A stretch of DNA of 64,000 bases from a bacterium HR37. Lineage in GTDB: Bacteria; Desulfobacterota_D; UBA1144; Nemesobacterales; CSP1-2. The number at the start of each line of letters is the position of its first letter. Position 1 is the stretch's first letter. Below are positions 6,592-48,574 of the stretch, piece by piece. The position numbers and the translations under genes were made by a program. The notes beneath the pieces were generated by a model. The model did no database searches. It was not told the DNA's origin and saw only the letters and a program-made list of their open reading frames with translations. The stretch spans positions 1 through 64,000 of the forward strand of contig BEIN01000003.1 of assembly GCA_002898375.1 (NCBI GenBank), in the 5' to 3' direction.

Positions 6592-6996
6592 CTAATCTGA
6601 GCTGTCCTTTTTAAATCGAAGGGCTACAGAGTTTATACAGTAGCGAAGACCGGTGGGAGGAGGCCCATCATTAAAGACATGTCCAAGGTGAGCATCACAT
6701 CTACTGCATAGCACCTCTATTCGGATCATTCCGTGACTGTAGTCTGGTTGTGTTCTTACTCTGTCTTCAGCAATTGGTTTCCAGAAACTCGGCCAGCCTG
6801 TACCGGATTCGTACTTTGTTTCAGAGCTAAATAGCTCATTGCCACAACACACGCAAAGATAGATGCCTTTTTCCTTATGGTTGTAGTATTTTCCGGAAAA
6901 GGGCCTTTCAGTTCCTTTCTTTCTGGTAACATAGTATTCTTCAGGGGTAAGTATCTTTTGCCATTCCTCGTCTGTTTTTATAACCTTTTCAACCAT
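6592..6996 (-). CDS. msrB: Peptide-methionine (R)-S-oxide reductase
   Basis: 134 residues, the usual length for a cytoplasmic stand-alone MsrB. It has both zinc-binding CxxC pairs (CVCC near residue 48, CSRC near residue 97), [10 protein letters not shown], and the catalytic segment [13 protein letters not shown] with the active-site cysteine. It reduces methionine-R-sulfoxide in proteins with electrons from thioredoxin. There is no signal peptide and no fused MsrA. It lies about 70 bp downstream of nadA and may share its transcript. Confidence 0.95.
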
Positions 6997-7067
6997 TACT
7001 TGTTTAACCCCCTTTTATTTAATGTTTATTATGAAGATTAGGGGAGATGGCCCTTTGTAAAGTGTGT

Positions 7068-8039
7068 TTAGTTAGCAAGAGAAAGCATTCTTTCTATAGA
7101 TTTTCTGGCTCTTGCTGCTATTTCCTCGGGTACCTTTACTTCGTATACCTCTTCCTTAAGCGAGTTTAAGACCTTTTCAAGGGTAATCATCTTCATGAAT
7201 TTACACACGGCGTTTTCACTTACAGGGTAGAAGGTTTTATCAGGGTTTTCTTTTTTTAGCCTGTGAAGTATTCCTATCTCAGTGGCTACTATAAACTCCT
7301 TTGCTCTTGAGCGTTTTGCGTGGCTTATCATACCACCTGTTGATAGAAAGTAGGTGTTTTTGTTTTCAACAGGGTCACAGGCTGAGTAGTACATATATGA
7401 AGTTGTGCAGCCACACTCAGGATGTATTAACATATCTGCTTCAGGGTGTGCCTCTCTCATTTTTCTTATGTTTTCAGGTCTTATGCCAGCATGAACATGG
7501 CATTCCCCAGGCCAGATGTGAATTTTTCTTCCCGTCACCTTTGCAACATAGGCTCCAAGGAACATATCGGGAAGAAAAAGAATTTCTCTGTCTTCGGGAA
7601 TTGCTTTTATAACCTGTACCGCATTTGAAGAGGTGCAACAGTAGTCGCTTTCGGCTTTGATATCAGCAGTGGTATTAACGTAGGAGACCACAACAGCATT
7701 TGGATGCTCTTTTTTCCACTCTCTTAGTTCTTCAACGTTGATTGAGGCAGCAAGAGAACATCCTGCTTTTAAATCTGGGATGAGTACCTTCTTCTCAGGG
7801 CATATTATGGAGGCAGTTTCTGCCATAAAATGAACCCCACAGAATACAATAACATCAGCATCCGTTTTGGCAGCTTCCTGGGAAAGGGCTAGGGAATCAC
7901 CAATAAAGTCTGCTATATCCTGCACTTCGGGTATCTGATAGTTGTGTGCAAGGATTACAGCATTCTTCTCCCTCTTTAAACGGTTAATCTCTTCTATTAT
8001 CCACTCCTTTTTTTCCATTTCCATTAGCATAGCATTCAC
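7068..8039 (-). CDS. nadA: Quinolinate synthase
   Basis: 323 residues. It has the expected segments AVILAHNYQIPEVQDIADFIGDS, CGVHFMAETASI, LKAGCSLA, CHVHAGI and HPECGC. Three conserved cysteines (in CGVHF, TTSY-region EC-GC and MKMI-adjacent CKF) are placed to ligate the single 4Fe-4S cluster. NadA condenses iminoaspartate with dihydroxyacetone phosphate to make quinolinate, the second step of bacterial NAD synthesis. It is 20 nt downstream of nadC in the nadB-korAB-nadC-nadA run. The enzyme is oxygen-sensitive, which suits an anaerobe or microaerophile. Confidence 0.95.
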   Translation of the reverse strand: MNAMLMEMEKKEWIIEEINRLKREKNAVILAHNYQIPEVQDIADFIGDSLALSQEAAKTDADVIVFCGVHFMAETASIICPEKKVLIPDLKAGCSLAASINVEELREWKKEHPNAVVVSYVNTTADIKAESDYCCTSSNAVQVIKAIPEDREILFLPDMFLGAYVAKVTGRKIHIWPGECHVHAGIRPENIRKMREAHPEADMLIHPECGCTTSYMYYSACDPVENKNTYFLSTGGMISHAKRSRAKEFIVATEIGILHRLKKENPDKTFYPVSENAVCKFMKMITLEKVLNSLKEEVYEVKVPEEIAARARKSIERMLSLAN

Positions 8040-8059
8040 CCAAATTCTTAAATCAAATA

Positions 8060-8899
8060 TTATACCATATAGAGGGCTATATCTAAAGCAGGAGGAGAAT
8101 GGGTAAGTGCACCAATGGATATAAAATCAACACCTGTTTCTGCAATCTTTCTTACGTTTTCAAGATTAATACCTCCGGAGACCTCCGTAAGTGCTCTTCC
8201 CTTTATTATTTCAAGAGCCTCTTTTATGGTTTCAATGGGCATATTATCAAGCATTATTATATCGGCTCCTGCAGAAAGGGCCTCTTTTACCTCTTCAAGG
8301 TTTTTTGTCTCAACCTCTATCTTGAGCAGATGAGGGCCTCTTTCACGAACAGACCTTACTGCCTCTGTTATGCTACCTGCAAGCTTTATGTGGTTCTCTT
8401 TTATAAGTATTCCATCGAAAAGCCCAAACCTGTGGTTGCTTCCGCCACCTATACGCACGGCATATTTATCCAGTATCCTGAGTCCCGGTACGGTTTTTCT
8501 TGTATCAAGTATCTTTACCGGCAATCCTTCTACGGAGTTTACAAACTTAGAGGTAAGGGTTGCTATACCTGAAAGCCTTTGAAGGAAATTTAGGGCTACA
8601 CGTTCCCCTTTGAGTATGGCCTTCTGTAAGCCTTCAATCTCGGCTAGTATATCTTGTGGTTCTACCCTGTCTCCATCCCTTTTTTTTTCATGCCATACTA
8701 TGTTTTGATCCAGTTTCTTAAAAACCCTTTCGGCTACAGAAAGACCAGCTACTACGCCGCTTTCTTTAGCGGTGATTACAGCTTTTGTCTTTTTATCTGT
8801 TGGGAAAAGCGATTCTGTGGTTATATCACCGCTTCCTATATCTTCTTGGAGGGCAGTTTCTATTATCTGTTCGATACGAAGCCAGTCTGGTTCTCTCAT
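8060..8899 (-). CDS. nadC: Nicotinate-nucleotide pyrophosphorylase (carboxylating)
   Basis: 279 residues, family-typical length. It contains EDIGSGDITTE, ERVALNFLQRLSGIATLT, LDTRKTVPGLRILDKYAVRIGGG and NHRFGLFDGILIKENHI, then EVETKNLEE, IMLDNM and EVSGGI. These form the quinolinate and PRPP sites. It turns quinolinate and PRPP into nicotinate mononucleotide, following NadA. It starts 17 nt after korB and ends 20 nt before nadA, so it is transcriptionally linked to both. Confidence 0.96.
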   Translation of the reverse strand: MREPDWLRIEQIIETALQEDIGSGDITTESLFPTDKKTKAVITAKESGVVAGLSVAERVFKKLDQNIVWHEKKRDGDRVEPQDILAEIEGLQKAILKGERVALNFLQRLSGIATLTSKFVNSVEGLPVKILDTRKTVPGLRILDKYAVRIGGGSNHRFGLFDGILIKENHIKLAGSITEAVRSVRERGPHLLKIEVETKNLEEVKEALSAGADIIMLDNMPIETIKEALEIIKGRALTEVSGGINLENVRKIAETGVDFISIGALTHSPPALDIALYMV

Positions 8900-8916: not shown

Positions 8917-9939
8917 TTATCTTACTTCCCAGATATCTCCTGAGTAGAGGAGTTTTGCAATATCCGTTTGAAATCTCTCCTTTGCCTTTTCAATCTGCGT
9001 ATAGAGCATCTCCTCAAATGAGGGTTGAGAAACCCTTCTAAATATTCCCATTGGTACGGGGTATTCAGGCCAGTAGAGCTTTGAGAGTGCAAAAGCAAGG
9101 GAAAGGTTAGTTTCATCGTGAACTGTTAGGTCCTCAGGAGGGTTTTTGGGATCAAACTCCACAATCTCAAACCTTCCGTTCTTAAACCTAAGCCCCTTGT
9201 CTCTGTTCTTACCAAATATAAGCGGTTTTCCGTGCTCAAGAATGAGATTTCTCTCCTCTCTTACCTCTTTTCTGGTAAAGTCGTCAAATACACCGTCATT
9301 ATAGATGTAACAGTTCTGGTATATGTGTATAAAAGATGTCCCTTTGTGTTTGTGAGCTTCCTTTATAAGTTCGGTAAGGTGCTTTACATACGCTGCAGAT
9401 GTTCTTGCCACAAAGGTTGCACCTGATGCAAGGGCTAGTGCTACAGGTTCTGCAGGTTCCTCAATTGTCCCAAAGGGGGCCGATTTATTTACAGTTCCCT
9501 TATTGCTTGTGGGTGAGTACTGTCCCTTTGTCAGTCCATAGACCTTGTTGTCAAAAAGAAGTATGTTTATATCTACGTTTCTTCTCATAACGTGAATCAG
9601 ATGGTTCCCTCCGATGGATATCCCATCTCCATCTCCGGTTATCACCCACACTGAAAGCTCAGGATTTGCTATCTTAACACCAGTGGCAATTGGTATAGGT
9701 CTTCCGTGTATTGTGTGGAATCCATATGTGGACATATAGTAGGGAAGACGTGCAGCACAACCTATTCCTGATATCACCGCATGCTTTTCTTTGGGGATAC
9801 CTAGCTCTGCAAGTGCTGTTTGGAACGCTTTAATAATTGCGTAGTCCTCACAACCTGGACACCATCTTGGTTCCTGGTCAGATTTAAAATCTGAGGGTTT
9901 ATATGTCTTTTCCTCTATTTGTTTTTCTAACGTACTCAT
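8917..9939 (-). CDS. korB: 2-oxoacid:ferredoxin oxidoreductase, beta subunit (KorB-type)
   Basis: 340 residues. It has the cluster and thiamine pyrophosphate motifs of the beta subunit: WCPGCEDYAIIKAFQ, GIGCAARLPYYMSTYGFHTIHGR, GDGDGISIGGNHLIH and FDNKVYGLTKGQYSPTS. A fourth conserved cysteine is in YQNCYIYN. With KorA it would oxidatively decarboxylate 2-oxoglutarate (or run in reverse in CO2 fixation), reducing ferredoxin. There is no separate delta ferredoxin subunit nearby, so this is the two-subunit form. Substrate choice (2-oxoglutarate rather than pyruvate) is inferred from family resemblance. Confidence 0.9.
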   Translation of the reverse strand: MSTLEKQIEEKTYKPSDFKSDQEPRWCPGCEDYAIIKAFQTALAELGIPKEKHAVISGIGCAARLPYYMSTYGFHTIHGRPIPIATGVKIANPELSVWVITGDGDGISIGGNHLIHVMRRNVDINILLFDNKVYGLTKGQYSPTSNKGTVNKSAPFGTIEEPAEPVALALASGATFVARTSAAYVKHLTELIKEAHKHKGTSFIHIYQNCYIYNDGVFDDFTRKEVREERNLILEHGKPLIFGKNRDKGLRFKNGRFEIVEFDPKNPPEDLTVHDETNLSLAFALSKLYWPEYPVPMGIFRRVSQPSFEEMLYTQIEKAKERFQTDIAKLLYSGDIWEVR

Positions 9940-9949
9940 CTATTCTCCG

Positions 9950-11791
9950 TTAATGGGTTTTTAAACCCTTGTATTCTTCTTTTATAAAGCTTAGAAGTTC
10001 TGATACATTAAAGGGTTTTCCAGTAACCCTGTTGTATCCTATTGCATCAACCAGGTATCTTGCCCTGATTACATATGAGAGTTGCCCTAAATTGAGCTCA
10101 GGGACAACCACCTTTTTAAATTTCCTCAGTACCTCACCTAGGTTCTTAGGGAGGGGATTTAGGTGTCTAAGGTGTATCATTGACACCTTCATGCCCTCAC
10201 TGTTTGCAAGCTCAACAGCCGCCTTTATATGTCCGTATGTGCTACCCCATCCCACCACCAGAATCTCCCCATCTGGTGGGCCCATAATCTGGACATCCGG
10301 TATATCTTGAACTGCTCTTTGAACCTTCTGTGCCCTAAGCTTTGTCATAAGGTCGTGGTTTTCGGGGTCATAGGAAACATTTCCATAGATATGGCTTTTT
10401 TCAAGCCCTCCAATTCTGTGTTCGAGCCCGGGGGTACCAACCTTTACCCATGGTCTTGCAAGTGTTTTTTCATCGCGTATGTAAGGGTAGAACCCCTCGG
10501 GATTTTTTCTGAACTCTATTTCTATATTGGGTATATTCTCTAACTCTGGTAGCTTCCATGGCTCGGAGGAATGGATAAGGAACTGATCAGAGAGTACCAA
10601 AACAGGGGTCATGTATTTTGTGGTAAGCTTTACAGCTTCTATTGCTGTCCAGAAACAGTCTGAAGGTGAACATGGAGCAAGTATTATTACGTGTGAGTCT
10701 GAGGGCCTTCCAAAAAGGGCAAACAGGAGATCCCCTTGCTCGGTTTTTGTGGGCATCCCGGTGGATATCCCGGCTCTCTGGTAATCAAACACAACCAGCG
10801 GGATCTCAGCCATAACAGCAAGGTTTAGGGATTCAATCTTAAGTGCAAGCCCCGGCCCACTTGTTCCTGTTATACCCAAGGCGCCTGCATAGGAAGCCCC
10901 TATTGCCATTGTTATTGCTGCTATTTCGTCTTCGGTTTGAATCGAGATTACCCCGTAGTGCTTTAATGCTGAGAGTATGTGTAGAACCTCACTTGCAGGG
11001 GTTATAGGGTATCCGCAGTATACGATTGGAAGACCAGATTTATGAGAGGCAACAACAAGCCCATATGCAGTTGCAAGTGCACCGTTTATGTTTCTGTATT
11101 TTCCTGGCTCCAGCCTTGCTGGAGGTACTTGGTAGTGTACTGGAAATATCTCCATAGTGTCACAGATGTTGTATCCTGCCTTTAGGGCCTTGATATTGGC
11201 TCCTAAGATTTCAGGCTTTGATGCAAAACGTTTGTTAAGGAAGCTTATAATTGGATCAAGAGGTCTTGAAAAGAGCCAGGAAATCATTCCCAGTGCAAAG
11301 AAGTTCTTACACCTTAGCTTTTCCCTATGTCCAATTGGCTCTTCTTTTAGTGCTTCCAGAGTAAGCCTGGTTATCGGTACCCTGTAGATTCTATAGGAGT
11401 TTAGAGAACCATCCTCTAGTGGATTTGATTCAAAACCTGCCTTCCTAAGGTTTTGCTCTGTAAACTCATCTTCATTTGCTATTATTATCCCCCCCGGTTT
11501 TAGCGTCGGAAGATTCACTTTTAGCGCAGCCGGATTAAAAGCTACAAGGACATCAGGGTTATCTCCAGGGGTGTATATATCGTATGCAGCAAATTGAATC
11601 TGATAGGATGAGACACCATAGGTGGTTCCCTGGGGAGCCCTTATCTCTGCAGGGTAGTCAGGCAGTGTGGCAAAGTCATTACCAACAACAGCGGTGACGT
11701 TTCCAAACTGCTCACCCATAATCTGTACTCCATCTCCTGAGTCCCCTGCAAACTTTACCGTTACTTTATCAAGCTTTTCTATATTATCCAT
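9950..11791 (-). CDS. korA: 2-oxoacid:ferredoxin oxidoreductase, fused gamma-alpha subunit (KorA-type)
   Basis: 613 residues. The first roughly 190 residues form the gamma domain, with FAGDSGDGVQIMGEQFGN and PAEIRAPQGTTYGVSSYQIQ. The rest is the alpha domain, with YCGYPITPASEVLHILS, TEDEIAAITMAIGASYAGA, TGTSGPGLALKIE and IVGWG-like segments near the C-terminus. This gamma-alpha fusion is typical of two-subunit 2-oxoglutarate synthases and absent from the four-subunit enzymes. It is 10 nt upstream of korB. The gene pair lies between nadB and nadC on one strand. Confidence 0.92.
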   Translation of the reverse strand: MDNIEKLDKVTVKFAGDSGDGVQIMGEQFGNVTAVVGNDFATLPDYPAEIRAPQGTTYGVSSYQIQFAAYDIYTPGDNPDVLVAFNPAALKVNLPTLKPGGIIIANEDEFTEQNLRKAGFESNPLEDGSLNSYRIYRVPITRLTLEALKEEPIGHREKLRCKNFFALGMISWLFSRPLDPIISFLNKRFASKPEILGANIKALKAGYNICDTMEIFPVHYQVPPARLEPGKYRNINGALATAYGLVVASHKSGLPIVYCGYPITPASEVLHILSALKHYGVISIQTEDEIAAITMAIGASYAGALGITGTSGPGLALKIESLNLAVMAEIPLVVFDYQRAGISTGMPTKTEQGDLLFALFGRPSDSHVIILAPCSPSDCFWTAIEAVKLTTKYMTPVLVLSDQFLIHSSEPWKLPELENIPNIEIEFRKNPEGFYPYIRDEKTLARPWVKVGTPGLEHRIGGLEKSHIYGNVSYDPENHDLMTKLRAQKVQRAVQDIPDVQIMGPPDGEILVVGWGSTYGHIKAAVELANSEGMKVSMIHLRHLNPLPKNLGEVLRKFKKVVVPELNLGQLSYVIRARYLVDAIGYNRVTGKPFNVSELLSFIKEEYKGLKTH

Positions 11792-15064: not shown

Positions 15065-17425
15065 ATGAACAACAGACAGCAGTTCATCAATGGAATGACC
15101 CTAATGAGGGCTATCAACGAAAGTGAAGCTGAGCTGGTTATCGAAGAACATCTCCGTGAACGCGGCTGGAACATCACTGACTTCACGGTTACCCGTAAGC
15201 ACTGGCGTGATCATCTGGATGGTGAGGAAGCCGACCGTGTGTTCCTACACGACGGCCGTGTTGTCGCCATCCTGGAGGCAAAAAAGCCGGGTAAAGACCT
15301 TTGGGCTGCCCTTGAGCAAGCTAAGCGCTATGCACGAACCTACAAGAGGAATACAGGACATGATGTCTCGCTAATCTTCGCGAGTGACGGCACGATCTTC
15401 CTCCGACAAAACCTTAAGGCAAACACCTTACCAGAACGCATTCAGAATTTTCCAACTCCTGCTGAGTTTAAGGAGTTTTTCCAACCGCAAGTGGCACAGC
15501 TCCAAGGAACCCTTCGGGACTATCAGCGAGTAGCTGTGTCTCAGGTTCTCGCTTCGGTACAGGCAGGTCGCCGCCGAATGTATCTACAAATGGCTACAGG
15601 TACCGGCAAAACCATCACAGCGGCTGGCGTGATTGCCAAACTTTGGTCGGTGGGTCTCATTCGGCGAACTTTGTTCTTGGTGGACCGTGACGCCTTGGCT
15701 GCTCAGACCGTTAGGAAATTTAAGACGCATCTTGGCGACAACTTCAATATCGAGCGGGCCACTGGAGGCAACGAAGACAAGCATAGGGATGTGCTCGTGG
15801 CTACAATTCAGCACTTGGCAGTGCGCAACAAGTATCTTTCCTTTCCTAAAGACCACTTCAGCCTTGTAATACTCGACGAGTGCCATCGGTCCTATTTCGG
15901 AGACTGGTATCCCGTTCTTGAGCACTTCGCCAGTGGCGGTGCGATCCTCCTGGGTTTGACCGCAACCCCGGCCGACAAAGAGACAATCAACACCGATCGT
16001 TTCTTTACCGACCCCGGCCAGTATCCGGGACCCATTTATCGTTATACCATACGTCAAGCCGAAACAAACCCAGAAGTGCCGGAGTGGGAGCGGCTGGCAC
16101 AGTGCATTCATTTTAAGTTTCAAACTAACGTCGACCTCGAAGGCGTCCACGACATGGGCTTCGACTTCGAGCCTGAGCAACTGGGTCGGGCTGTGGACGT
16201 CCCGCAGAGAAACCGGCTCATTGCTGAAAAGTACTTCGAGATTCTGGGCACACGTCAGCCTGTCAAAACCATAGTCTTTGCTGCCTCCATAGCGCACGCC
16301 AAGAACTTGCGCTACGCGCTTATTGAGAAATACAACGAGCTCAACAATCTCCCGCCCAATGACGCCTCGGCGGAGAAGTTCATCGTGGCGGTCCACAACC
16401 AGATGCCCGGCGCAAGCGCTTTGATTGAGGAGTTCCAAAAGATTACTACCGCTGAGGAGCGCAAAGCGATCATCGAGCAGGCGCACAAGGATCCAAACAT
16501 GGCGCCGCGGCCGATTGTTCTGGTGGGCGTCGGCATGTTGGACACCGGGATTGATGCCCCGGATGTGGAAGTCCTGCTCATGGCGCGCCCGACCAAATCC
16601 AAGGTGCTTTACGTCCAGATGAAGGGTCGTGGCACCCGCAAGTGCCGCGAAACCGGCAAGGAGTTTTATAAGCTCGTGGACTTTGTGGACATCACGAGGC
16701 TTGAACCTGTGATTACCAATGACACGCCAGGCGTGGTGGATGAGCCTCTTGAGGAGGAAGAAGAGCAACTCATTCAGCAGGAGCGCGGGGAGCTCCAAGA
16801 AACTCAATCCGGCGCTACGGCTCGCCAGAAGGTTGGGACCGAGCAGCAGATGGTTATCGCCGATGTCCCCGTGCATCTTGTCTTTTCGGAAACCATCTCC
16901 CCGGCCGTTCTGGAAGAGCTCCGTCGTCAGGTTGAAGCCCAGCTTAAGGGTGGCATGGAGCGCGAGGCGCTTAGGCAGCGGTTCGCGCAGACCCTTCTCT
17001 GCTGGCGCTACTTCAAAGGCGCAACCCCGCCTGACCATTCCTTCCTTGCGACGATGGGCTTTGACCTCTCCACCCTTCGAGACCTCTACGGAGAACCCGA
17101 AGCGACCCTTGAGGACTTCATCGCCGTCGCTATGGGCGAAGCCGACTTCGAGACCCTGCAACGCCGGCGTGAGTTTGAAAAGTGGGCGCTGGGCAAAAGT
17201 CTCAACAGCGCACAGCGAGAAATGGTTTTGATGATCTGCGATTTCAAGCGAGCAAACCCGGGCATTACCCCTGAGCAGATTCTCCGCAGTCACCTGCTCG
17301 AGCAGGCAGGTGGATTGCCACGCATCAAAGCCCTTTTCGGTGGACTTGACCGCCTTTTGCAGCTTGCGGATGAAGCATTGTCTTTGGAAATTGGTGCACC
17401 ACTAAAGGAGGAAAGCCATGGCTAA
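15065..17425 (+). CDS. hsdR: Type I restriction enzyme, R subunit
   Basis: 786 residues. Order of features: an N-terminal nuclease domain with EADRVFLHDGR and ILEAKKPGKD (the D..ExK type), then a superfamily 2 helicase with Walker A MATGTGKTITAAG (about residue 176), LFLVDRDALAAQT, DECHRSYFGDW (about 268) and GLTATPADKET, then the second RecA lobe with MLDTGIDAPDVEVLLM and GRGTRKC, and a C-terminal coiled region that contacts the methylase. It belongs to the EcoEI-like group. Codon use and GC content are clearly unlike the host core, indicating transfer. It overlaps hsdM by 8 bp. Confidence 0.95.
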   Translation: MNNRQQFINGMTLMRAINESEAELVIEEHLRERGWNITDFTVTRKHWRDHLDGEEADRVFLHDGRVVAILEAKKPGKDLWAALEQAKRYARTYKRNTGHDVSLIFASDGTIFLRQNLKANTLPERIQNFPTPAEFKEFFQPQVAQLQGTLRDYQRVAVSQVLASVQAGRRRMYLQMATGTGKTITAAGVIAKLWSVGLIRRTLFLVDRDALAAQTVRKFKTHLGDNFNIERATGGNEDKHRDVLVATIQHLAVRNKYLSFPKDHFSLVILDECHRSYFGDWYPVLEHFASGGAILLGLTATPADKETINTDRFFTDPGQYPGPIYRYTIRQAETNPEVPEWERLAQCIHFKFQTNVDLEGVHDMGFDFEPEQLGRAVDVPQRNRLIAEKYFEILGTRQPVKTIVFAASIAHAKNLRYALIEKYNELNNLPPNDASAEKFIVAVHNQMPGASALIEEFQKITTAEERKAIIEQAHKDPNMAPRPIVLVGVGMLDTGIDAPDVEVLLMARPTKSKVLYVQMKGRGTRKCRETGKEFYKLVDFVDITRLEPVITNDTPGVVDEPLEEEEEQLIQQERGELQETQSGATARQKVGTEQQMVIADVPVHLVFSETISPAVLEELRRQVEAQLKGGMEREALRQRFAQTLLCWRYFKGATPPDHSFLATMGFDLSTLRDLYGEPEATLEDFIAVAMGEADFETLQRRREFEKWALGKSLNSAQREMVLMICDFKRANPGITPEQILRSHLLEQAGGLPRIKALFGGLDRLLQLADEALSLEIGAPLKEESHG

Positions 17426-19067
17426 CACACCGGACTTCAATCAGTTTGGCGAAGAACTCTGGGAAATCGCCAACGTCTTCCGTGACGACGCCCTTCACGC
17501 CACGGAACGCCTGGAAACGTTTAGCCTCTTTCTGTTTCTCAAACTCTGGGACGAGATGGCACTGGAGCAAGAGGAGGCCCTGGGCCGCAAACTGACAGAC
17601 GATGAGCTGGCTATCCCCGAAAAATATCGCTTCCACAAATGGGCGTCAGATCCGGACAAGTACGCCAAAGAAAACGGCTTCGACGACAGCGTGGATTTCT
17701 GCCGACGGATGTTCGACGACCTGGCAAAGCGCAAAGTGCTTGATAAGCATGGCAAGGATATCACCTTTGATGTACGCAGGCTTTTCGGCGGTACCGTGTT
17801 TCGCCTGCGCTACACCACCACCATCCGGCAACTTGTCTCCAAGCTGAACGAGCTCAACCTCCGCGAGATCATGATGCGCGGAGTAGGTGAAACCGGCGAG
17901 CGCTTTGACATCTTCGGGCGTGCCTACGAATACCTGCTCCAGCAGTTCGGCCAGAACAAGGAGTTTGCCGAATACTTCACGCCTCGCCACATCGTGGACC
18001 GCATGGTGCAAATCATTGACCCAGAAATCGGGGAAACCATCTACGACCCCGCCTGTGGCACCGGTGGCTTCATCGTGCGCGCCTTTGAGTGGGTCAAAAA
18101 GAAGATTGAGCGGAAGAAAATCTCAGCCACGGAGAAGGAGCGTTTGCTGCGCACGCTCAAGGAAAAGCATCTCGTTGGCGTGGAGCATGTTCCGCTGGTC
18201 TTCAAGCTCGCCCTGATGAACATGATCCTCCACAAGGACGGCTCCAGCCAGCTGCATAACGACGACAGCCTTTCCAACAAAGCGCAGGACCTCCACAAGA
18301 ACAAGTACGACATCATCCTCGCTAACCCGCCCTTTGGACCCACTAAGCAGGAGCGGCTAGCGCAGTTTGAGTATCACATCAAACTCTACGAAGCGCTCTT
18401 TATCCAGCACATGATGAACGCCTTGCGGCCAGGCGGACGGGCGGCGGTCGTGCTCAAGGAAGGGCTCCTTTTCGATTCCAAGAAGATGCTCCGCAACATC
18501 TGCCGCAAACTCGTGGAACAGTTTGAGGTGCTGGCCGTGATCAGTCTGCCGAACGGCGTCTTCAACCCCTATAGTGGCGCCAAGACCAGCATCGTGGTCT
18601 TCCGCAAGCCGCTCGGGAAGGACGATGTGCGCACCTCGAAGGTCTGGTTCTACCGGGTGGAGAGCGACGGCCGCGACCTGGGCGCTACCCGCAGACCCTT
18701 GCCCGACTTTGCCACCGACGGCGACCTTAAGCATATGGTTTCCCTTTTCCCTTACACCTGGCGCCACGAAAAGGACGGGGGCGTGCGGGCCATTCTCAAG
18801 GCTGACGACCTTAAGCGGTTTGAAAGGGAAAAATCCTGGTGGGCCACCATAGACCAGATTCGCGCCACGGACTACAACCTCACCGCTGGCCGTTACTGCC
18901 CGCACCAGGCGGAAGCCGTCGAGCACGAGAAGCCCGAAGTCCTCATCAATCGCCTGCTAGAGCTGGAGGAGGAGATCACCGAAGACCTGCGCCAACTTTT
19001 GGCGATGGTGTCGGGAAGTAATCTTGCCGAAGTATCACAAACAAACCAAAACGGAGGTGAACTATGA
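17418..19067 (+). CDS. hsdM: Type I DNA methyltransferase, M subunit
   Basis: 549 residues. The N-terminal helical domain carries LETFSLFLFLKLWDEMALEQ. The N6-adenine methylase domain has AEYFTPRHIVDRMV, the AdoMet motif DPACGTGGFIV near residue 210 and the catalytic NPPFG near residue 302. Together with HsdS it modifies one adenine on each strand of a bipartite target. The start ATG at 17418 lies inside hsdR, behind an AAAGGAGGAAA ribosome site. Its TGA overlaps the ATG of the next gene as ATGA. Confidence 0.97.
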   Translation: MANTPDFNQFGEELWEIANVFRDDALHATERLETFSLFLFLKLWDEMALEQEEALGRKLTDDELAIPEKYRFHKWASDPDKYAKENGFDDSVDFCRRMFDDLAKRKVLDKHGKDITFDVRRLFGGTVFRLRYTTTIRQLVSKLNELNLREIMMRGVGETGERFDIFGRAYEYLLQQFGQNKEFAEYFTPRHIVDRMVQIIDPEIGETIYDPACGTGGFIVRAFEWVKKKIERKKISATEKERLLRTLKEKHLVGVEHVPLVFKLALMNMILHKDGSSQLHNDDSLSNKAQDLHKNKYDIILANPPFGPTKQERLAQFEYHIKLYEALFIQHMMNALRPGGRAAVVLKEGLLFDSKKMLRNICRKLVEQFEVLAVISLPNGVFNPYSGAKTSIVVFRKPLGKDDVRTSKVWFYRVESDGRDLGATRRPLPDFATDGDLKHMVSLFPYTWRHEKDGGVRAILKADDLKRFEREKSWWATIDQIRATDYNLTAGRYCPHQAEAVEHEKPEVLINRLLELEEEITEDLRQLLAMVSGSNLAEVSQTNQNGGEL

Positions 19068-19372
19068 GCATCACAATTGGTAAGTACAGCTTCGAAGGGC
19101 CTTATGACTCGACAGATTCGCTCCAGGATCGCTCAGGCGTGTATGCAATCCTGGATCAGCGGCCAGATGGGTATCATCTCATCGACGTAGGCGAATCGTC
19201 CCAGGTGAAAACGCGGGTTGAGACTCATGACCGCGAAGGCTGCTGGCAGCGTCATTCACTCGGGACGCTAATGGTTGCGGTCTTATACACACCGCACTTG
19301 CAGCAACCAGGGCGTTGGGCAATCGAGCAGGAAATCCGACGGCAATACAACCCGCCCTGTGGCGAACGATGA
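19064..19372 (+). CDS. GIY-YIG-like small protein in R-M operon
   Basis: 102 residues. It has SGVYAILDQ followed about 10 residues later by HLIDVGESSQVKTRVETHDR, which resembles the paired GIY and YIG strands, the arginine of the nuclease core and a possible late glutamate (EQEI). The tyrosine of YIG is replaced by an aspartate (IDVGES), and catalytic competence is unclear. It starts in an ATGA overlap with the hsdM stop and is therefore translationally coupled. GIY-YIG-like proteins occur beside some type I R-M systems; the role here is unknown. Confidence 0.6.
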   Translation: MSITIGKYSFEGPYDSTDSLQDRSGVYAILDQRPDGYHLIDVGESSQVKTRVETHDREGCWQRHSLGTLMVAVLYTPHLQQPGRWAIEQEIRRQYNPPCGER

Positions 19373-19485
19373 GAATGGACATCGTTTGGGAATTTGCTGG
19401 ATCCTATCGCGCGGGCCGCGTGCCCAGATACCTGAAAGCCGCCGACACGCTGGCTTTCCTGGATCAAGCGAAGAACGTTTTCTGA
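19369..19485 (+). CDS. 38-codon ORF between GIY-YIG-like gene and hsdS
   Basis: The ORF reads 38 residues (starting MRMDIVWEFAGSYRAG, ending DQAKNVF). Its ATG overlaps the previous stop as ATGA. Its own TGA overlaps an in-frame ATG of the hsdS frame (19485), with the GGAGG of hsdS just beyond. The codons are GC3-rich, like the rest of the island. No ribosome site of its own is visible, so translation would depend on coupling. I recognise no family. It could be a small accessory protein, an inhibitor or a coupling device. Confidence 0.4.
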   Translation: MRMDIVWEFAGSYRAGRVPRYLKAADTLAFLDQAKNVF

Positions 19486-19499
19486 TGGGAGGACGGGCG

Positions 19500-21170
19500 A
19501 TGACCAGGAAGAAGCTACCCAAGGGATGGCGGTGGGCTAGGCTGGGAGCGAGGGAAATTGCAACTGTCATTATGGGGCAGTCGCCGCCGGGGAGCACATA
19601 CAACGGAGAAGGCCGCGGACTGCCGTTCTATCAAGGAAAAGCCGACTTTGGAGATGTGTCACCCACTCCCAGGGTGTGGTGCTCAGCACCCCGGAAAACT
19701 GCGGAAGTGGGAGATATCCTCCTCTCTGTTCGGGCGCCCGTCGGACCGACGAACCTCGCGAGTGAGCAGTGCTGTATTGGACGGGGACTTGCCGCGATAC
19801 GAGGTGAAAGAAACGCGCTGACGCTCTACTTGTACTTCTGGTTCAAGCACGTAGAACCGTGGCTCAGCGGGCAAGGAGAAGGCAGCACGTTCACAGCGAT
19901 CGGGAAAGAGAGGATCGAGAGCCTTTCTGTTCCCCTCCCCCCGCTCCCCGTCCAGGAGCGGATTGTGCAGATCCTTCAGAAGGCCGACCAGATCCGCCGC
20001 AAGCGCAAAGAGGCGCTGGAGCTGGCGGATAAGATACTGCCGGCCCTCTTTCTGGAAATGTTCGGCGACCCAGCGACCAATCCAAAGGGGTGGCCGACGG
20101 CACCAATAGGCGCTTTGGTGCATTTTGACACATTTCAGATTAGGCCAGAACCAGGGAAGACGTATCTCTATTTGGCCCCAGAACACATCGAGTCACACAC
20201 TGGTAACTATAGTGGGCCTCATCCCACTGACGGTCGAGAGCTTGGTAGTGCGAAACATCCATTTACTTCGGAGCACGTGCTTTATTGTAAGCTTCGTCCC
20301 TACCTGAATAAAGTTGCCTTACCGCATACTGATGGCATCTGCAGCACCGAACTGGTGCCTCTCCGCCCTGGCCCTAAACTATTGAGGGAGTTTTTGGCTA
20401 TCTACCTTCGCCTTCCGTTCTTTGTTGCTACCGCTGTGCACAAATCACAGGGAACAAAAATGCCCCGCTTTGGCCCAGAGCTCATGAAACAAGAGATGAT
20501 GATCGTTCCGCCTCTTCCATTACAACATTCATTTTGTCAACAAGTGAACCAGCTCATGGAGGCTTCGCGCTGGTTAAAAGAGGGCTTGAGCCTGTCTTCC
20601 AGTTCTTTTGATGGACTCTTGGCCCGCGCCTTCACTGGCGAGCTGACTGCCGAATGGGAAGCCGCCAACGCCGACTGGATTGCCGAGCGGCAAGCCCTGT
20701 ACGAGCGCCTGCCCCGGTTGCTCCTCTTGGCGCTGCTCGTGGAAAAGGCGAGGCGTGCGGGTCGAGCGGCGGCCGAGGTACTGGTGACGGCGCTGATGAA
20801 GTACGCCTTCCTCCTCCAGATGGAGGGAAGCGCCTCACGCCGACGGTTCTACCACTTCGTCCCGTATCACTACGGACCCTTTGCCAAAGAGCTTTACACG
20901 GACCTGGAGGCGCTTCAAAAAGAGGGCCTTGTGCGGGTAGACCACGACACCGAAGAGGACAAAACAAGGATCAAAGTGATTGACCCCGCCAAAGCTGAAG
21001 AAGCCCTCTCCGCCCTGCCCGATGACCTCAAGGAGGACGCGGCAACCATTGTTGAAACCTACGGCGACCTCGATCACAGTGCCTTGCTGGAGGCGGTTTA
21101 TGAGAAATATCCTGCCTACGCCCGCAAAAGCCGCCTCAAACAGAACAAGAGAAAAGCACCAAGGGGGTGA
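19500..21170 (+). CDS. hsdS: Type I specificity subunit (HsdS) with extra C-terminal Panacea/SocA-like domain
   Basis: About 556 residues from ATG 19500, chosen because GGAGG at 19488-19492 is well spaced; the open frame goes further upstream without support. Target recognition domain 1 is about residues 1-150, followed by the conserved spacer helix (QERIVQILQKADQIRRKRKEAL). Domain 2 is about 195-340, followed by the second helical part ending DGLLARAFTGELTAEW. A domain of about 155 residues then follows, with ALMKYAFLLQMEG, FVPYHYGPFAKELYTDLEAL and GLVRV. This resembles the Panacea/DUF4065 antitoxin-type fold and is not part of ordinary HsdS. The fusion assignment is by pattern only. Confidence 0.85.
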   Translation: MTRKKLPKGWRWARLGAREIATVIMGQSPPGSTYNGEGRGLPFYQGKADFGDVSPTPRVWCSAPRKTAEVGDILLSVRAPVGPTNLASEQCCIGRGLAAIRGERNALTLYLYFWFKHVEPWLSGQGEGSTFTAIGKERIESLSVPLPPLPVQERIVQILQKADQIRRKRKEALELADKILPALFLEMFGDPATNPKGWPTAPIGALVHFDTFQIRPEPGKTYLYLAPEHIESHTGNYSGPHPTDGRELGSAKHPFTSEHVLYCKLRPYLNKVALPHTDGICSTELVPLRPGPKLLREFLAIYLRLPFFVATAVHKSQGTKMPRFGPELMKQEMMIVPPLPLQHSFCQQVNQLMEASRWLKEGLSLSSSSFDGLLARAFTGELTAEWEAANADWIAERQALYERLPRLLLLALLVEKARRAGRAAAEVLVTALMKYAFLLQMEGSASRRRFYHFVPYHYGPFAKELYTDLEALQKEGLVRVDHDTEEDKTRIKVIDPAKAEEALSALPDDLKEDAATIVETYGDLDHSALLEAVYEKYPAYARKSRLKQNKRKAPRG

Positions 21171-21174
21171 AACA

Positions 21175-21744
21175 ATGGAAAGCAACGAAGTCAACACGGC
21201 TTTCGAGATTCTCCTGGAAGAAATCGAGCTTGTCGCCAACCAGCTCAACGAAGACGGCGCGCACGCCTTCAAGGAAGGCGATTACGATAGGGCTCGGCAC
21301 GCCATAGAGGAAGCAACTCGACTGGCAGACTTCCGCGAGAAGGTCAAGGCGCTTCAAAAAGAGTGGGCCTCTCTCCTGAGCAAGAAACCCCAGCGCCTAA
21401 AAAAGACTGTTCGCACGGTTAAAAGCCGCTTGCCGCGAGGACTGCGTACCCCAGAGGAGGCTTTTCGTCGGCCCATCCTGGAAGCGCTCGTAGAGCTCGG
21501 CGGAAAAGGTTCCATCGGCGATGTCCTCGACCTAGTGGAGGAAAAAATGCGCGCTCATTTGACGAAGTACGATTTTGAGCCGTTGCCGTCGGATCCCAAG
21601 TCCATTCGTTGGCGCAACACAGCCCAGTGGTGCCGCAATAACCTTGTTCGCGAGGGCTTAATGAAAGCGGATTCGCCTTACGGAATATGGGAGATATCAG
21701 AGTTAGGACGAAAGGCATTGCAAAATGAAAGTGCGCTATCGTGA
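21175..21744 (+). CDS. Winged-helix protein with Mrr-N-like C-terminal domain
   Basis: 189 residues from ATG 21175, preceded by AAGGGGGTGA. The N-terminal half is helical and charged (ELVANQLNEDGAHAFKEGD, then RHAIEEATRLADFREKVKAL), like a small coiled-coil or TPR-like hairpin. The C-terminal half (about residues 95-185) reads ALVELGGKGSIGDVLDLVE and WRNTAQWCRNNLVREGLM, then GIWEISELGRKAL. This is the winged helix seen at the N-terminus of Mrr-type restriction proteins, here without a nuclease. It begins 4 nt after hsdS and overlaps the DUF3644 gene by 20 bp. A DNA-binding accessory or regulatory role is inferred. Confidence 0.65.
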   Translation: MESNEVNTAFEILLEEIELVANQLNEDGAHAFKEGDYDRARHAIEEATRLADFREKVKALQKEWASLLSKKPQRLKKTVRTVKSRLPRGLRTPEEAFRRPILEALVELGGKGSIGDVLDLVEEKMRAHLTKYDFEPLPSDPKSIRWRNTAQWCRNNLVREGLMKADSPYGIWEISELGRKALQNESALS

Positions 21745-22675
21745 GCTTCTGGATCGAGCCATTGCTGCCACGGTGGCAGCAATTGATGTTTACAACAAGC
21801 CTGACTTCCCATACCGGGCTGAGTCCTTCACGATTCTGGCTCTAAACGGCTGGGAGCTTCTTCTCCAAGCGAAATGGCTCCAAGGTAATGGCAATCGGTT
21901 AACCAGCCTTTATGTGTTAACTGGCAAGGGAAGACCTAAATACAAGCGAACTCGCTCACGTAACTTCATGATGTACAACCTCAACTATCTAGCCCAGAAG
22001 CTAACGGAGCAAAGGCAGCTCGATGAAAACGCCCGGCGGAATCTTGAGGTGCTTGCAGAACTGCGTGACACAGCGGTGCACTTTTATCATCGCAGTCCCA
22101 AACTGGCTAAGCGGGTGCAAGAGGTAGGGATGGCCTGCCTGAAGAACTTCGTTGCTGCCGTTCAGGACTGGTTCGGCGAGGACCTATCGCGGTTTAACTT
22201 TTACCTGATGCCCCTTTCGTTTGTGACCCCACCGCCGAGCGTGGAAACGATTCAGCTAAATAAAGCAGAGAAAGCGTTTCTCCGATTCTTAGAGACCCTG
22301 ACCCAGCAGGACGACAACCCAACAAACCGCTACTCGGTAGCCGTCAATATTGAGGTTCGCTTCGTGCGGTCCAAGTTGGTCTCTGCAACACCGGTGCGAG
22401 TTACAAATGACTCTGATGCCCCCGCTGTTCAACTAACGGAAGAAGACCTTCGCGCACGGTACCCTTGGGACTATGCCGAACTTACCCACCAGTGCAAGCA
22501 GCGTTATCCGGGATTTAAGGTTAACAAGTCGTATCACGAGCGTCGTAAGTGCTTAGCACAAGATCAAAGATATGCTTACGTTCGAGCATTAGATCCACAC
22601 AATCCGAAATCAACCAAGAAGACCTTTTACAGCCAGGCGATTCTTGAAAAGTTGGATCCAAACATTACTTCTTAG
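21725..22675 (+). CDS. DUF3644 family protein
   Basis: 316 residues. The N-terminal part has the DUF3644 pattern, with YRAESFTILALNGWELLLQAKWL and then LAELRDTAVHFYHRSPKLAKRVQEVG. The C-terminal part (about residues 230-316) is a basic region with LRARYPWDYAELTHQCKQRYPGFKVNK, resembling a helix-turn-helix. DUF3644 genes often lie beside R-M and other defence genes; the fold recalls HEPN-like helical ribonucleases, but no RX4-6H motif is certain here (RDTAVHF is the closest). It ends the coupled operon. Function unknown. Confidence 0.75.
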   Translation: MKVRYRELLDRAIAATVAAIDVYNKPDFPYRAESFTILALNGWELLLQAKWLQGNGNRLTSLYVLTGKGRPKYKRTRSRNFMMYNLNYLAQKLTEQRQLDENARRNLEVLAELRDTAVHFYHRSPKLAKRVQEVGMACLKNFVAAVQDWFGEDLSRFNFYLMPLSFVTPPPSVETIQLNKAEKAFLRFLETLTQQDDNPTNRYSVAVNIEVRFVRSKLVSATPVRVTNDSDAPAVQLTEEDLRARYPWDYAELTHQCKQRYPGFKVNKSYHERRKCLAQDQRYAYVRALDPHNPKSTKKTFYSQAILEKLDPNITS

Positions 22676-45505: not shown

Positions 45506-45579
45506 GGGGATGTAGCTCAGTTTGGGAGAGCGCCGCCTTCGCAAGGCGGAGGTCGGGGGTTCGATTCCCCTCATCTCCA
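45506..45579 (+). tRNA. tRNA-Ala (CGC)
   Basis: Acceptor GGGGATG with CATCTCC includes the G3-U70 pair that identifies alanine tRNA. The anticodon stem CCGCC/GGCGG encloses TTCGCAA, so the anticodon is CGC. The T arm is GGGGG-TTCGATT-CCCCT. The 3' bases after the discriminator A are CTA, so CCA is not encoded, unlike the other two tRNAs here. An integrase fragment follows at once, making this a likely integration site. Confidence 0.93.
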
Positions 45580-45602
45580 CTAGTGATTTCAGGGAGTTAC
45601 GC

Positions 45603-46435
45603 TTAGTTCTTCTTCGCTCTTCTGTTTAAACGTTCCTCAAGCTTTCCTATAGCTGTTCTCTTTGCCTCTTCTCCTGTATGGCTGTAACGCTTAAGCATCC
45701 GGATATCCTTGTGCCCGCTAAGCCCCATAACGGTTGTTGGATCCTCTTTCTCCCCCACAACAAGATTTGATACAAAGGTATGTCTAAGATCATGAAACCT
45801 GCAATATGCTATTCCTGATTTCTTAAGGGCTGTCTTCCAAGCCCTCTTCCATGCATCAGGATGGGCTTCCCCTCATGGGTGGTAAATACATACTCACATG
45901 TTGTCTTTTCCCTAAGCTCTATTAAGGTGTCCATTAAAGGCTTTGCTAAGGGAATTGCCCTTGACTCATTGTTTTTGCTCTCTTTCACATAAATATATCC
46001 ACGCTCAAAATCAACATCACTCCACTTAAGCTTTGCTATCTCTCCCCTTCTCATTCCAGTTAGATAAGCACAAAGTAGGATTGGCTTAAAGTGAGGTGAT
46101 GCTGATTGGTAAAGCCTTTTAAACTCTTCCTCAGTTAAAACCCTGGGTAAATACTTTTGAACCTTAACAAGCTTTATTCCCTGGATAGGGTTCTTTGTTA
46201 TAAGCTTCCGTTCTAAAGCAAGGTTAAACATCCTTCTTAAAACTCCAAGCTCTTTGTTTATGGTTTCAGGTTTCCTTCCCTGAGCCTTCCTCCTAGCTTT
46301 GTATTTCTCAACAAGCCAGAGGTTTAGCTCACCCACATACTTACCGCCAAAGAATGAAAGCAAGGGTTTTGATGCTGCAATATCTCTTTCTGGTGCCCTG
46401 TGGTGAGCTTTTGCCCATTCAAGGTATTTTTCCAT
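45603..46435 (-). pseudogene. Tyrosine recombinase (integrase), frameshifted
   Basis: The open frame 46435-45809 gives a SAM-like core-binding domain (LEWAKAHHRAPERDIAASKPLL) and the first part of the catalytic domain (LTGMRRGEIAKLKWSDVDF, with the first catalytic Arg), up to EGKPI. The rest (HDLRHTFVSNL, LSGHKDIRMLKRYSH, ending RRAKKN at 45603) is in another frame, including His, Arg, His and Tyr of the catalytic set. Adding one base at the GG pair 45859-45860 joins them as GKPIPDAWK. The N-terminus also seems truncated. It lies just after tRNA-Ala, convergent to it. It could be a true pseudogene or a base-calling error. Confidence 0.85.
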
Positions 46436-46458
46436 AAGGGTATCAAGATGTACAGAGA

Positions 46459-46590
46459 AGGTTCTTTGATCTCGTATCCTTCTCTTTTCATAACTTCATG
46501 GATCCATCCCCTTAAAAGCTCACTTACGGTGAGATAGTTCTTTTTTGCATACTCTTTAACTTTTCTATTTATACTCGAAAGTGAAACTAT
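46459..46590 (-). pseudogene. Ribbon-helix-helix protein remnant
   Basis: In one minus-strand frame the sequence reads VSLSSINRKVKEYAKK, then NYLTVSELLRGWIHEVMKREG. This has the strand-helix-helix pattern of CopG-like DNA-binding proteins, but there is no start codon at its upstream end. It overlaps the N-terminal area of the integrase in a different frame. It could be the rest of an antitoxin or excisionase-type gene. Confidence 0.4.
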
Positions 46591-46636
46591 ATGCTAATCG
46601 TAGTAAAATAAGTTAATTTATAGCTTTATAGCGAAC

Positions 46637-46654
46637 TTACAATTTTAATTGTAA
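46637..46654. promoter_or_regulatory. Palindromic operator-like site upstream of the methyltransferase gene
   Basis: TTACAATT and AATTGTAA flank a TT centre, a perfect 18 bp palindrome about 90 bp ahead of the methyltransferase start. A TATAAT at 46707-46712 lies between. A small DNA-binding regulator could control the R-M pair here; none is encoded intact nearby. Confidence 0.35.
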
Positions 46655-46745
46655 TATGTAATCTAAAAAACTATGTACAGGCTATTTAAACGGGATCGGT
46701 TAGAGATATAATAATAAAGTAAAGAGATGTAAAAGGAAATAAAGT

Positions 46746-47681
46746 ATGCAAGAAGTCAATTTAGCCAAAAAATACATCCCTATGAAAGAAGTAACCCATG
46801 AAGATTATCTGGAGCTTATCAAAGGAAGGAGTTCAGTAGTTATTGAGGATGTGGAGATAAAGCTTCAAAAAGTATGGGACATAAAATCATATGCACCACC
46901 TGATGATTATACTCCTGAACGCACAACTGTATGGAGTTTTCCTGACAGAGGGGATTGGGCAACACATCAAGGAAACTACAGGGGAAACTGGTCCCCTTAT
47001 ATTCCAAGAAATCTTATCCTAAAGTACACTCAGAAGGGTGATTGGGTTTTGGATCAGATGATGGGAAGCGGAACTACCCTTGTTGAAGCTAAGCTGCTGG
47101 AGAGGAATGCAATTGGTGTAGATATTAACCTTGATGCTGTAATAGTTGCAAGGAATCGTTTGGATTTCTTCTACAATCCTCTTTTCCCGGAATACAGAGA
47201 GCCGGAAATTCTGACCTATTGGGGAGATGCAAGGAATCTGGATAAGATAGAAGACGAAAGCATTGATCTTATTGCCACTCATCCTCCATATGCAAGCATA
47301 ATTTCATATACTAAAAGCAAAAGGCTTGAGGACGATCTATCTCAACTTCCTTTTGAAGAGTACTTGGGGGAGATGAGGAAAGTAGCAGAAGAGTCATTCA
47401 GAGTATTAAAACCAAATAAGATCTGTGCAATTCTTATAGGGGATACAAGGAAGCACAAACATTATATACCCATTGCATTCAGGGTAATGGAAGCTTTCTT
47501 GGATACAGGTTTTATCTTGAAAGAAGATATTATCAAGCTTCAGTGGAACATGAAAACTACAAGGGAGAGATGGCGGGCAAAAGAGTATGAGTTTTATCTA
47601 ATAGGGCATGAACATATCTTCATTTTTAGAAAACCGGAAAGCGAAAAAGAATATAAGAAATATAAATTTAGCACAAAGTGA
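46746..47681 (+). CDS. DNA methyltransferase of type II R-M system
   Basis: 311 residues. The AdoMet motif VLDQMMGSGTTLVEAKLL (about residue 100) precedes the catalytic-type motif THPPYASII (about residue 178), then FEEYLGEMRKVAEESFRVLKPN. The order is motif I before motif IV, while the GSGTT form of motif I is typical of beta-class enzymes, where it comes last. This suggests a permuted beta-like enzyme. Whether the product is m6A or m4C is not clear (HPPY rather than DPPY or SPPY). It overlaps the endonuclease gene by GTGA. Confidence 0.85.
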   Translation: MQEVNLAKKYIPMKEVTHEDYLELIKGRSSVVIEDVEIKLQKVWDIKSYAPPDDYTPERTTVWSFPDRGDWATHQGNYRGNWSPYIPRNLILKYTQKGDWVLDQMMGSGTTLVEAKLLERNAIGVDINLDAVIVARNRLDFFYNPLFPEYREPEILTYWGDARNLDKIEDESIDLIATHPPYASIISYTKSKRLEDDLSQLPFEEYLGEMRKVAEESFRVLKPNKICAILIGDTRKHKHYIPIAFRVMEAFLDTGFILKEDIIKLQWNMKTTRERWRAKEYEFYLIGHEHIFIFRKPESEKEYKKYKFSTK

Positions 47682-47683
47682 TA

Positions 47684-48574
47684 ATGGTCAGATTCAAAGA
47701 GCTTGGCTTTAAAAACTTTGTGGAGTATAGAGATTATTTTTTTAATACCTTGCTACCTTCTAATAAGACATACAAGTATTTTGTTGATTGGAGTAAAGTT
47801 AAAAAGGTTATTAACAGATATTTAGATGAAATTTCTTTATTAAATTCCTTAACAAAAGTAAATACTAAAGAAAGAGAAAAGCGTTTATGCAAATTGTTAC
47901 TAACCTATCCAAAAGTGGTGAAGGTTATTCCTCTTCTCATAGCTGAAAGAGTTCAAAAGGGCAAGGTTGATATTTTTGATACTAGAAATGAGGAATTTGT
48001 TACAATTGAGTTTAATCCCGCAAAGATAAGCAGGGAAGATGTAAATAAAATCATAGAGTTTTGTGTTAAATCCAGTGTTATAAATTTATTTCAGGAAGTA
48101 AAGGATCTGCATGATTACCTTCTTGGTGTAGAAGTTGGTTTAGATACTAATGCTAGAAAAAATAGAAGCGGATATATCTTTGAAGAAATGTGTAAACAGA
48201 AAATTAAAAGAATCATTGGAGGGAGATATACTATAAAAAGTAACGACCCCAGTTTTTCTCTTTATGAAGTAATAACAAAAGGTAAAAGTAAAGGAAAAAC
48301 ACATGATTTTATTATTTACAAAGACAGCGATCCCTTGTTAATCGTTGAATGTAATTTCTACAATGTCTCTGGAAGCAAGCCGGTCTCTATATCTGAGAGC
48401 TATATAGAAATGCATAGAGAAGCTAAAAAGCGAGGAGTTAACTTTTTATGGATAACAGATGGCCCTGCATGGCATAAGATGAAAGAACCTCTATTAAGAA
48501 GCATAAAGGAAATGGATTGGATATTAAATTTTAGAATGCTAAACTTGGTTGAGAAAATCCTTAATCAAGAGTAA
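47684..48574 (+). CDS. DpnII-family type II restriction endonuclease
   Basis: 296 residues from ATG 47684 (a GTG at 47678 is possible and would overlap the methyltransferase stop). The family signature GVEVGLDTNARKNRSG lies near residue 148, followed by EEMCKQKIKRII, and a D-type nuclease core is suggested by THDFIIYKDSDPLLIVECNFY (D then ExN). DpnII/MboI members cut GATC. Here the partner is not the usual Dam-like enzyme, so the target may differ. AT-rich codon use, especially compared with the type I island. Confidence 0.8.
   Translation: MVRFKELGFKNFVEYRDYFFNTLLPSNKTYKYFVDWSKVKKVINRYLDEISLLNSLTKVNTKEREKRLCKLLLTYPKVVKVIPLLIAERVQKGKVDIFDTRNEEFVTIEFNPAKISREDVNKIIEFCVKSSVINLFQEVKDLHDYLLGVEVGLDTNARKNRSGYIFEEMCKQKIKRIIGGRYTIKSNDPSFSLYEVITKGKSKGKTHDFIIYKDSDPLLIVECNFYNVSGSKPVSISESYIEMHREAKKRGVNFLWITDGPAWHKMKEPLLRSIKEMDWILNFRMLNLVEKILNQE

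Follow-up and report, generated by a model that had tools for sequence, protein, structure and literature searches.

A type I restriction-modification operon with variable accessory genes, a predicted HEPN RNase and a Panacea-like extension of HsdS in the bacterium HR37

We analyzed a stretch of 64,000 nucleotides from the bacterium HR37 (positions 1 to 64,000 of contig BEIN01000003.1, assembly GCA_002898375.1), here called the window, which contains a type I restriction-modification (R-M) operon with several accessory genes. All coordinates of the operon are positions in the window, on the plus strand. Seven open reading frames (ORFs) of the same orientation occupy positions 15065 to 22675, with spacings of -20 to +14 bases between neighbors, in the order hsdR, hsdM, a GIY-YIG-like gene, an ORF of 38 codons, hsdS, a winged-helix gene with an Mrr_N domain, and a DUF3644 gene. 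The ORF coordinates bear out the gene order, strand and tight spacing described in the original prediction, which was made from the sequence alone. It had counted five accessory genes; there are four such ORFs, and the one of 38 codons resembles a relic rather than a gene. The families that it named were clearly recognized for HsdR, HsdM and HsdS, and the DUF3644 and Mrr_N assignments were matched by profiles, but the GIY-YIG assignment is weak.

The frames overlap by 8 bases between hsdR and hsdM, by 4 bases between hsdM and the GIY-YIG-like gene and between the latter and the 38-codon ORF, and by 20 bases between the winged-helix and DUF3644 genes, while a gap of 4 bases separates hsdS from the winged-helix gene. 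Shine-Dalgarno-like GGAGG or GGGGG sequences were identified upstream of hsdM, the GIY-YIG-like gene, hsdS and the winged-helix gene; the 38-codon ORF has no obvious one. The hsdS gene starts at either of two positions, the preferred one being the ATG at 19500, which has GGAGG just upstream, and the other being 19485; it stops at 21170. Since the homologs of HsdR begin at about codon 11 to 14 of the hsdR gene as called here, its start at 15065 may be a few codons early, and the true start is possibly 15095 or 15104.

The 3 core subunits were each recognized by Pfam and PADLOC profiles. The hsdR gene (15065 to 17425) encodes an EcoEI/EcoAI-like type I restriction subunit of 786 amino acids (PF04851, PF08463, PF04313), in which the DECH box of the DEAD-like motor and the E-A-K motif (ILEAK) of the PD-(D/E)xK nuclease are kept. 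The hsdM gene (17418 to 19067) encodes an N6-adenine methyltransferase of 549 amino acids (PF02384, 9e-60; PADLOC MTase_I, 8e-139) with intact DPACGTG and NPPF motifs, and the specificity part of hsdS (19485 to 20639) encodes 2 target recognition domains (PF01420, 2e-17). The motor and nuclease of HsdR, the HsdM motifs and the target recognition domains of HsdS together place the operon among the type I R-M systems, and judging from these residues the R-M system is apparently intact. HsdR and HsdM have relatives at 75% to 85% identity in 3 other loci (L008, L034, and L037), with 78% to 85% for HsdR, and more distant relatives on the Sulfolobus islandicus plasmid pYN01 and the Marinitoga plasmid pMO1. 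The PADLOC specificity model (Specificity_I, PDLC03184) covers HsdS over nearly its full length with 1110 bits, which suggests that a very similar HsdS is probably present in public data already.

Depending on which start is used, the HsdS protein has 556 to 561 residues; it carries an additional domain of about 175 residues at its C-terminus (20640 to 21170; residues 386 to 561 counted from 19485), which had been missed in the original prediction. The match of this extension to SocA_Panacea (PF13274) was 16.7 bits, below the Pfam gathering cut-off of 25.7. When 6 members of the extension family were aligned, all 6 matched the SocA_Panacea model (best 1.1e-5) as well as the DarG model (best 1.6e-7). 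The NCBI annotation of plasmid relatives of the extension is SocA-type antitoxin in some cases and restriction subunit S in others. The predicted structure is winged-helix-like, with a predicted local distance difference test score (pLDDT) of 79; a search of the PDB with this model gave no significant match, and searches of the sequences of solved structures with the extension, the GIY-YIG-like protein and the winged-helix protein returned nothing useful. Weak but consistent sequence similarity thus relates the extension to the SocA/Panacea antitoxin domain and to the C-terminal region of DarG. Among the 4 relatives that were identified through HsdM alone, 3 have the extension (L034, L037, and Sulfolobus pYN01), while it is absent from Marinitoga pMO1. 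It was also noted that the archaeal HsdS on pYN01 (positions 6630 to 8354 of locus L013) has this same Panacea-like C-terminal domain, with no DUF3644 gene. The extended HsdS is located upstream of DUF3644, either directly or with one gene between them, in the window, L007, L008, and L002. The extension occurs without DUF3644 in L034, L037, and Sulfolobus pYN01, and the reverse applies to L003 to L006, L009, and L029.

The last gene in the operon (21725 to 22675) encodes a DUF3644 protein of 316 amino acids, which was recognized by PF12358 (1e-48) and is listed by PADLOC as the phage-defense candidate PDC-S19 (PDLC04954, 5e-121). The DUF3644 family has been placed in the HEPN superfamily, in which the R-x4-6-H motif is the RNase site (Anantharaman and others, PMC3710099), and the overlapping family EC042_2821 was listed as occurring in R-M operons in 2013 (PMC3710099). 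The motif is conserved in the protein studied here as R114-x4-H119, both residues being invariant in all 7 DUF3644 sequences, and we consider this protein to be a predicted HEPN RNase. No experimental test of any DUF3644 or EC042_2821 member was found in our literature search.

To describe the neighborhoods of this gene we used a close clade of DUF3644 proteins with 58% to 66% identity, comprising 8 loci (L002 to L009) from a genome scan with DUF3644 and a ninth locus (L029) from a phylum search. In all 9 loci, which represent several phyla and R-M types, the DUF3644 gene adjoins genes or gene remnants for restriction, methylase, specificity or helicase-nuclease proteins. The order is R-M-S-DUF3644 in L004, M-DUF5655-S-DUF3644-R in L006, R-M-[relic]-S-DUF3644 in L008, and S...R followed by a DUF3644 fragment in L009. 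The DUF3644 gene is located after an MmeI-like methylase gene in L005 and L029 and after a gene for an SF1 helicase with an MTES_1575 nuclease in L003, and L002 and L007 contain degraded copies with the tail of HsdS. Within the close clade, these gene neighborhoods point to a strong association between DUF3644 and R-M systems. Most of the more distantly related DUF3644 genes were located outside hsd operons, and one of the distant genes is downstream of a SIR2-domain gene and an unassigned gene of 545 amino acids in L024 (5007 to 9774), which is another defense-like context. Furthermore, in L008 (7414 to 14170) the DUF3644 gene is followed immediately by a gene for a Swt1-type HEPN and SNF2 helicase protein and then by a sacsin-type ATPase gene, which form a defense-like pair.

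The gene between hsdS and DUF3644 (21175 to 21744) encodes a winged-helix protein of 189 amino acids with an Mrr_N domain at residues 96 to 183 (PF14338, 8.3e-15). Elsewhere, this gene was identified only in Pyrinomonas methylaliphatogenes K22 (L007), in degraded form, as a pseudogene with 82/69% identity. There (9184 to 10962), a clean deletion has joined the N-terminus of HsdR to the C-terminus of HsdS, and frameshifted winged-helix and DUF3644 genes follow. This locus is a remnant of the same operon and shows that a second phylum once had the order extended HsdS, winged helix, DUF3644.

The gap between hsdM and hsdS contains the 2 remaining ORFs. The first of these (19064 to 19372) encodes an accessory protein of 102 amino acids that had no Pfam match and a weak PADLOC match to PDC-S14 (9.8e-5), over residues 22 to 58 only; the GIY-YIG profile matched 1 of 3 homologs, weakly (E = 0.05). 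The residue pattern fits the GIY-YIG family (GVY at 25 to 27, R51-x3-H55, E88 and N96), with DVG at 41 to 43 in place of YIG. Homologs of this gene were found only on 2 plasmids, one of them from Persicobacter and lacking an hsd operon, the other a Sulfitobacter dubius plasmid (L015, 5316 to 12297), on which a homolog with 46% identity is located inside an unrelated type I operon. The gene was not detected in 11 genomes that carry the other parts of the operon. The Sulfitobacter operon also contains a short extra hsdS gene and a DUF3800 gene.

The second ORF in the gap (19369 to 19485) has only 38 codons. Over its final 86 bases it aligns with the hsdM-hsdS gap of L034 (75.6% identity, E 4e-13), and a stretch of 48 bp aligns with L008. 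In L034 and L008, the frame reads ...LDQAKNVLGW...R* and ends on a TGA that overlaps the ATG of hsdS. In the window, a TGA is present where L034 and L008 read GGG, yet WEDGR* is still in frame, its stop being the TGA that shares bases with the start codon of hsdS. The content of the gap differs among the relatives, while a common 3' tail is kept. We interpret the ORF as what is left, after decay, of the 3' end of an older gene that had occupied this slot. It had been listed as an accessory gene in the original prediction; we rejected a functional small protein, because the stop is premature and the frame runs on to the ancestral end, and because the same tail is found in gaps of relatives in which the upstream parts are decayed. 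We also considered DUF3800 as the older gene, which is a guess only, prompted by FVVYIDESGDEGF in the L008 gap and by the DUF3800 gene in the Sulfitobacter operon; the fragment had no Pfam match.

The original prediction had suggested that the GIY-YIG-like, winged-helix and DUF3644 genes form a conserved composite defense system with HsdRMS, a view that would be abandoned if the 3 genes appeared only rarely beside type I systems and independently of each other, and this is largely what we observed. None of the 3 genes was present in any of the 4 relatives that were identified through HsdM, all 3 together were found in the window only, and the winged-helix and DUF3644 genes were found together also in L007. 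DUF3644 also accompanies MmeI-like and other type I systems from which the other 2 genes are absent. The slot after hsdS contains the winged-helix and DUF3644 genes in the window and L007, DUF3644 alone in L008, and, in L034, an unrelated gene with a RecD-like helicase protein as its L037 counterpart. It was also noted that genes near the extended HsdS in L034 (9643 to 10494) and L037 (1320 to 4871) have a common N-terminus (MTTHLS(V/A)RLAWHDR...), the longer copy, in L037, having a RecD-like helicase region. A second layer of defense, as also suggested, is plausible for DUF3644, given its placement in the HEPN superfamily (PMC3710099) and the R-M-type genes or remnants beside it in 9 of 9 close-clade loci, but a conserved composite of 3 genes is not supported. 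It was correctly stated that the accessory proteins are not part of the classical type I enzyme, although this is not new, since the presence of HEPN proteins in such operons had been reported by 2013.

The operon forms an island with a GC content of 50% to 58%, as compared to about 41% in the surroundings and the genome, and the GC content at third codon positions ranges from 0.55 to 0.75 in the island versus 0.31 to 0.40 in the flanking hisB and ilvA-like genes. The C-terminal domain of HsdS was absent from the 57 other genomes of the phylum that were searched, and hsdR, hsdM and DUF3644 were not found beside hisB in 6 relatives from the same family, in which hisB-hisH itself is conserved. 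The base composition and these absences show that the island is foreign and the operon horizontally acquired, as had been proposed. A clean empty site could not be demonstrated, since the 6 relatives keep hisB-hisH, yet ilvA is not adjoining there, and no convincing direct repeats were found at the borders of the island. A phage or virus origin was rejected, as the DUF3644, HsdS extension, GIY-YIG-like and winged-helix proteins had no relatives in viral contigs and the GIY-YIG-like protein had none in phages. A separate segment of the window with a GC content of 33% to 37% (45506 to 48574) contains a gene for tRNA-Ala and, after it, a short tyrosine-integrase-like gene (45809 to 46435, minus strand), an N6/N4 DNA methylase gene (46746 to 47681) and a DpnII-type restriction endonuclease gene (47678 to 48574). 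This is a second acquired R-M system, probably on an integrated element.

The reading that we favor, at about even confidence, is that an intact-looking type I R-M system carries exchangeable defense cargo in 2 slots, with DUF3644 as a latent backup RNase similar to PrrC. The HsdM2S complex would methylate the DNA and HsdR would restrict it in an ATP-dependent manner, providing the first line of defense. Unrelated defense genes are exchanged in the hsdM-hsdS slot, now occupied by the GIY-YIG-like gene and the relic of a gene that it probably replaced, and in the slot after hsdS, with the Mrr_N winged-helix gene and the putative HEPN RNase. The latter would stay latent until the R-M system fails or is inhibited and then cut host or phage RNA, so that growth stops in the manner of PrrC in EcoprrI. 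Several observations weigh against this reading. The AlphaFold model of the DUF3644 protein is mediocre (pLDDT of 65), and the HEPN proteins among its best PDB matches are several, none significant (E ≥ 0.58). An ABC-ATPase sensor of the PrrC type is absent, DUF3644 being the only Pfam match in the protein. The sample of loci is small, and L002 to L009 were collected through DUF3644 itself. Finally, DUF3644 genes with at most 41% identity have no adjacent hsd operon (L010 to L012, L016, and L023), from which it follows that an R-M system is not obligatory for the family overall.

The main rival explanation, which we regard as possible, is that the accessory genes share only a promoter and mobility with the type I system and act alone, without its control, as has been reported for some genes embedded in defense clusters. 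The independent variation of the accessory genes among the relatives and the distant DUF3644 proteins outside hsd operons are consistent with this, as is the presence of DUF3644 beside R-M systems of very diverse types, which indicates that specific contact with one type of HsdS is not needed. However, DUF3644 genes of the close clade always adjoin intact or degraded methylase, specificity or helicase-nuclease genes. The frames often overlap, as if stoichiometry or control were under selection. It has also been shown that Panacea domains directly neutralize toxins, including predicted RNases (PMC8832971), and HsdS might bind and silence the HEPN RNase through its extension, with the loss or sequestration of HsdS freeing the toxin. 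The relationship of the extension to SocA/Panacea and DarG and the location of the extended HsdS upstream of DUF3644 in 4 loci argue for this, but since each occurs without the other they do not form an obligate pair, and we consider it unlikely that the extension is the antitoxin of DUF3644; a dedicated antitoxin-toxin pair was set aside as the main explanation for the same reason. A broader version seems equally doubtful, in which the Panacea-type domain of HsdS would serve as an antitoxin or sensor that restrains whatever toxic cargo the operon contains, DUF3644 here and others elsewhere. The DNA-recognition complex would then also act as the antitoxin, and the toxin would be set free once a phage inhibits the R-M complex or the operon is lost. 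That the island is a recent, passive or decaying insertion with accessory genes that are functionless in this host appears very improbable: the relic signals erosion in the hsdM-hsdS gap and in Pyrinomonas and Methylacidimicrobium the related genes have become pseudogenes, but all 6 substantial genes in the window are open, with recognizable catalytic motifs.

RNase toxins embedded in R-M operons are already known, and their silencing and release are understood for few of them. An HsdS protein with an antitoxin-type domain, encoded 5' of a HEPN toxin gene, offers a compact locus for testing how restriction is coupled to abortive infection. Furthermore, the 2 slots display the exchange of cargo within a single operon, the 38-codon relic being the molecular scar of one such exchange.

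The closest precedent for the proposed backup role is PrrC, a HEPN anticodon nuclease that backs up EcoprrI (PMC12707154, PMC3710099). Both loci have a HEPN RNase gene, predicted in our case, inside a type I hsd operon. PrrC is located in a type IC locus and contains an ABC-ATPase sensor domain. DUF3644 lacks this domain and has no known trigger, and the operon studied here differs further by the Panacea-like domain of HsdS and 2 additional accessory genes. Because the sensor is missing, we would class the system as working like PrrC, not as PrrC. The DUF3644/EC042_2821 family (PDC-S19) is the same protein family, already noted in R-M operons in 2013 (PMC3710099), whereas the papers searched describe no case of it being paired with an HsdS-Panacea fusion. 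Unrelated defense genes located between hsd genes are represented by TgvAB in the type I locus of VPI-2 in V. cholerae and by RloF and other Rlo genes in the hsd loci of Campylobacter (PMC11411939), although the cargo there is different (GmrSD-type restriction). Together with a 2024 survey of embedded defense genes, as cited in PMC11411939, these examples establish embedding as a known theme. The extension resembles the SocA/Panacea antitoxins and the C-terminal region of DarG weakly but consistently; unlike these, it occurs as a fusion with the specificity subunit of a type I system and has no conserved dedicated toxin partner. No paper on an HsdS-Panacea fusion was found in the collection searched, which was incomplete. 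The layout as such has precedents, and the HsdS-Panacea fusion, which in this operon accompanies HEPN cargo, is its new and unusual part.

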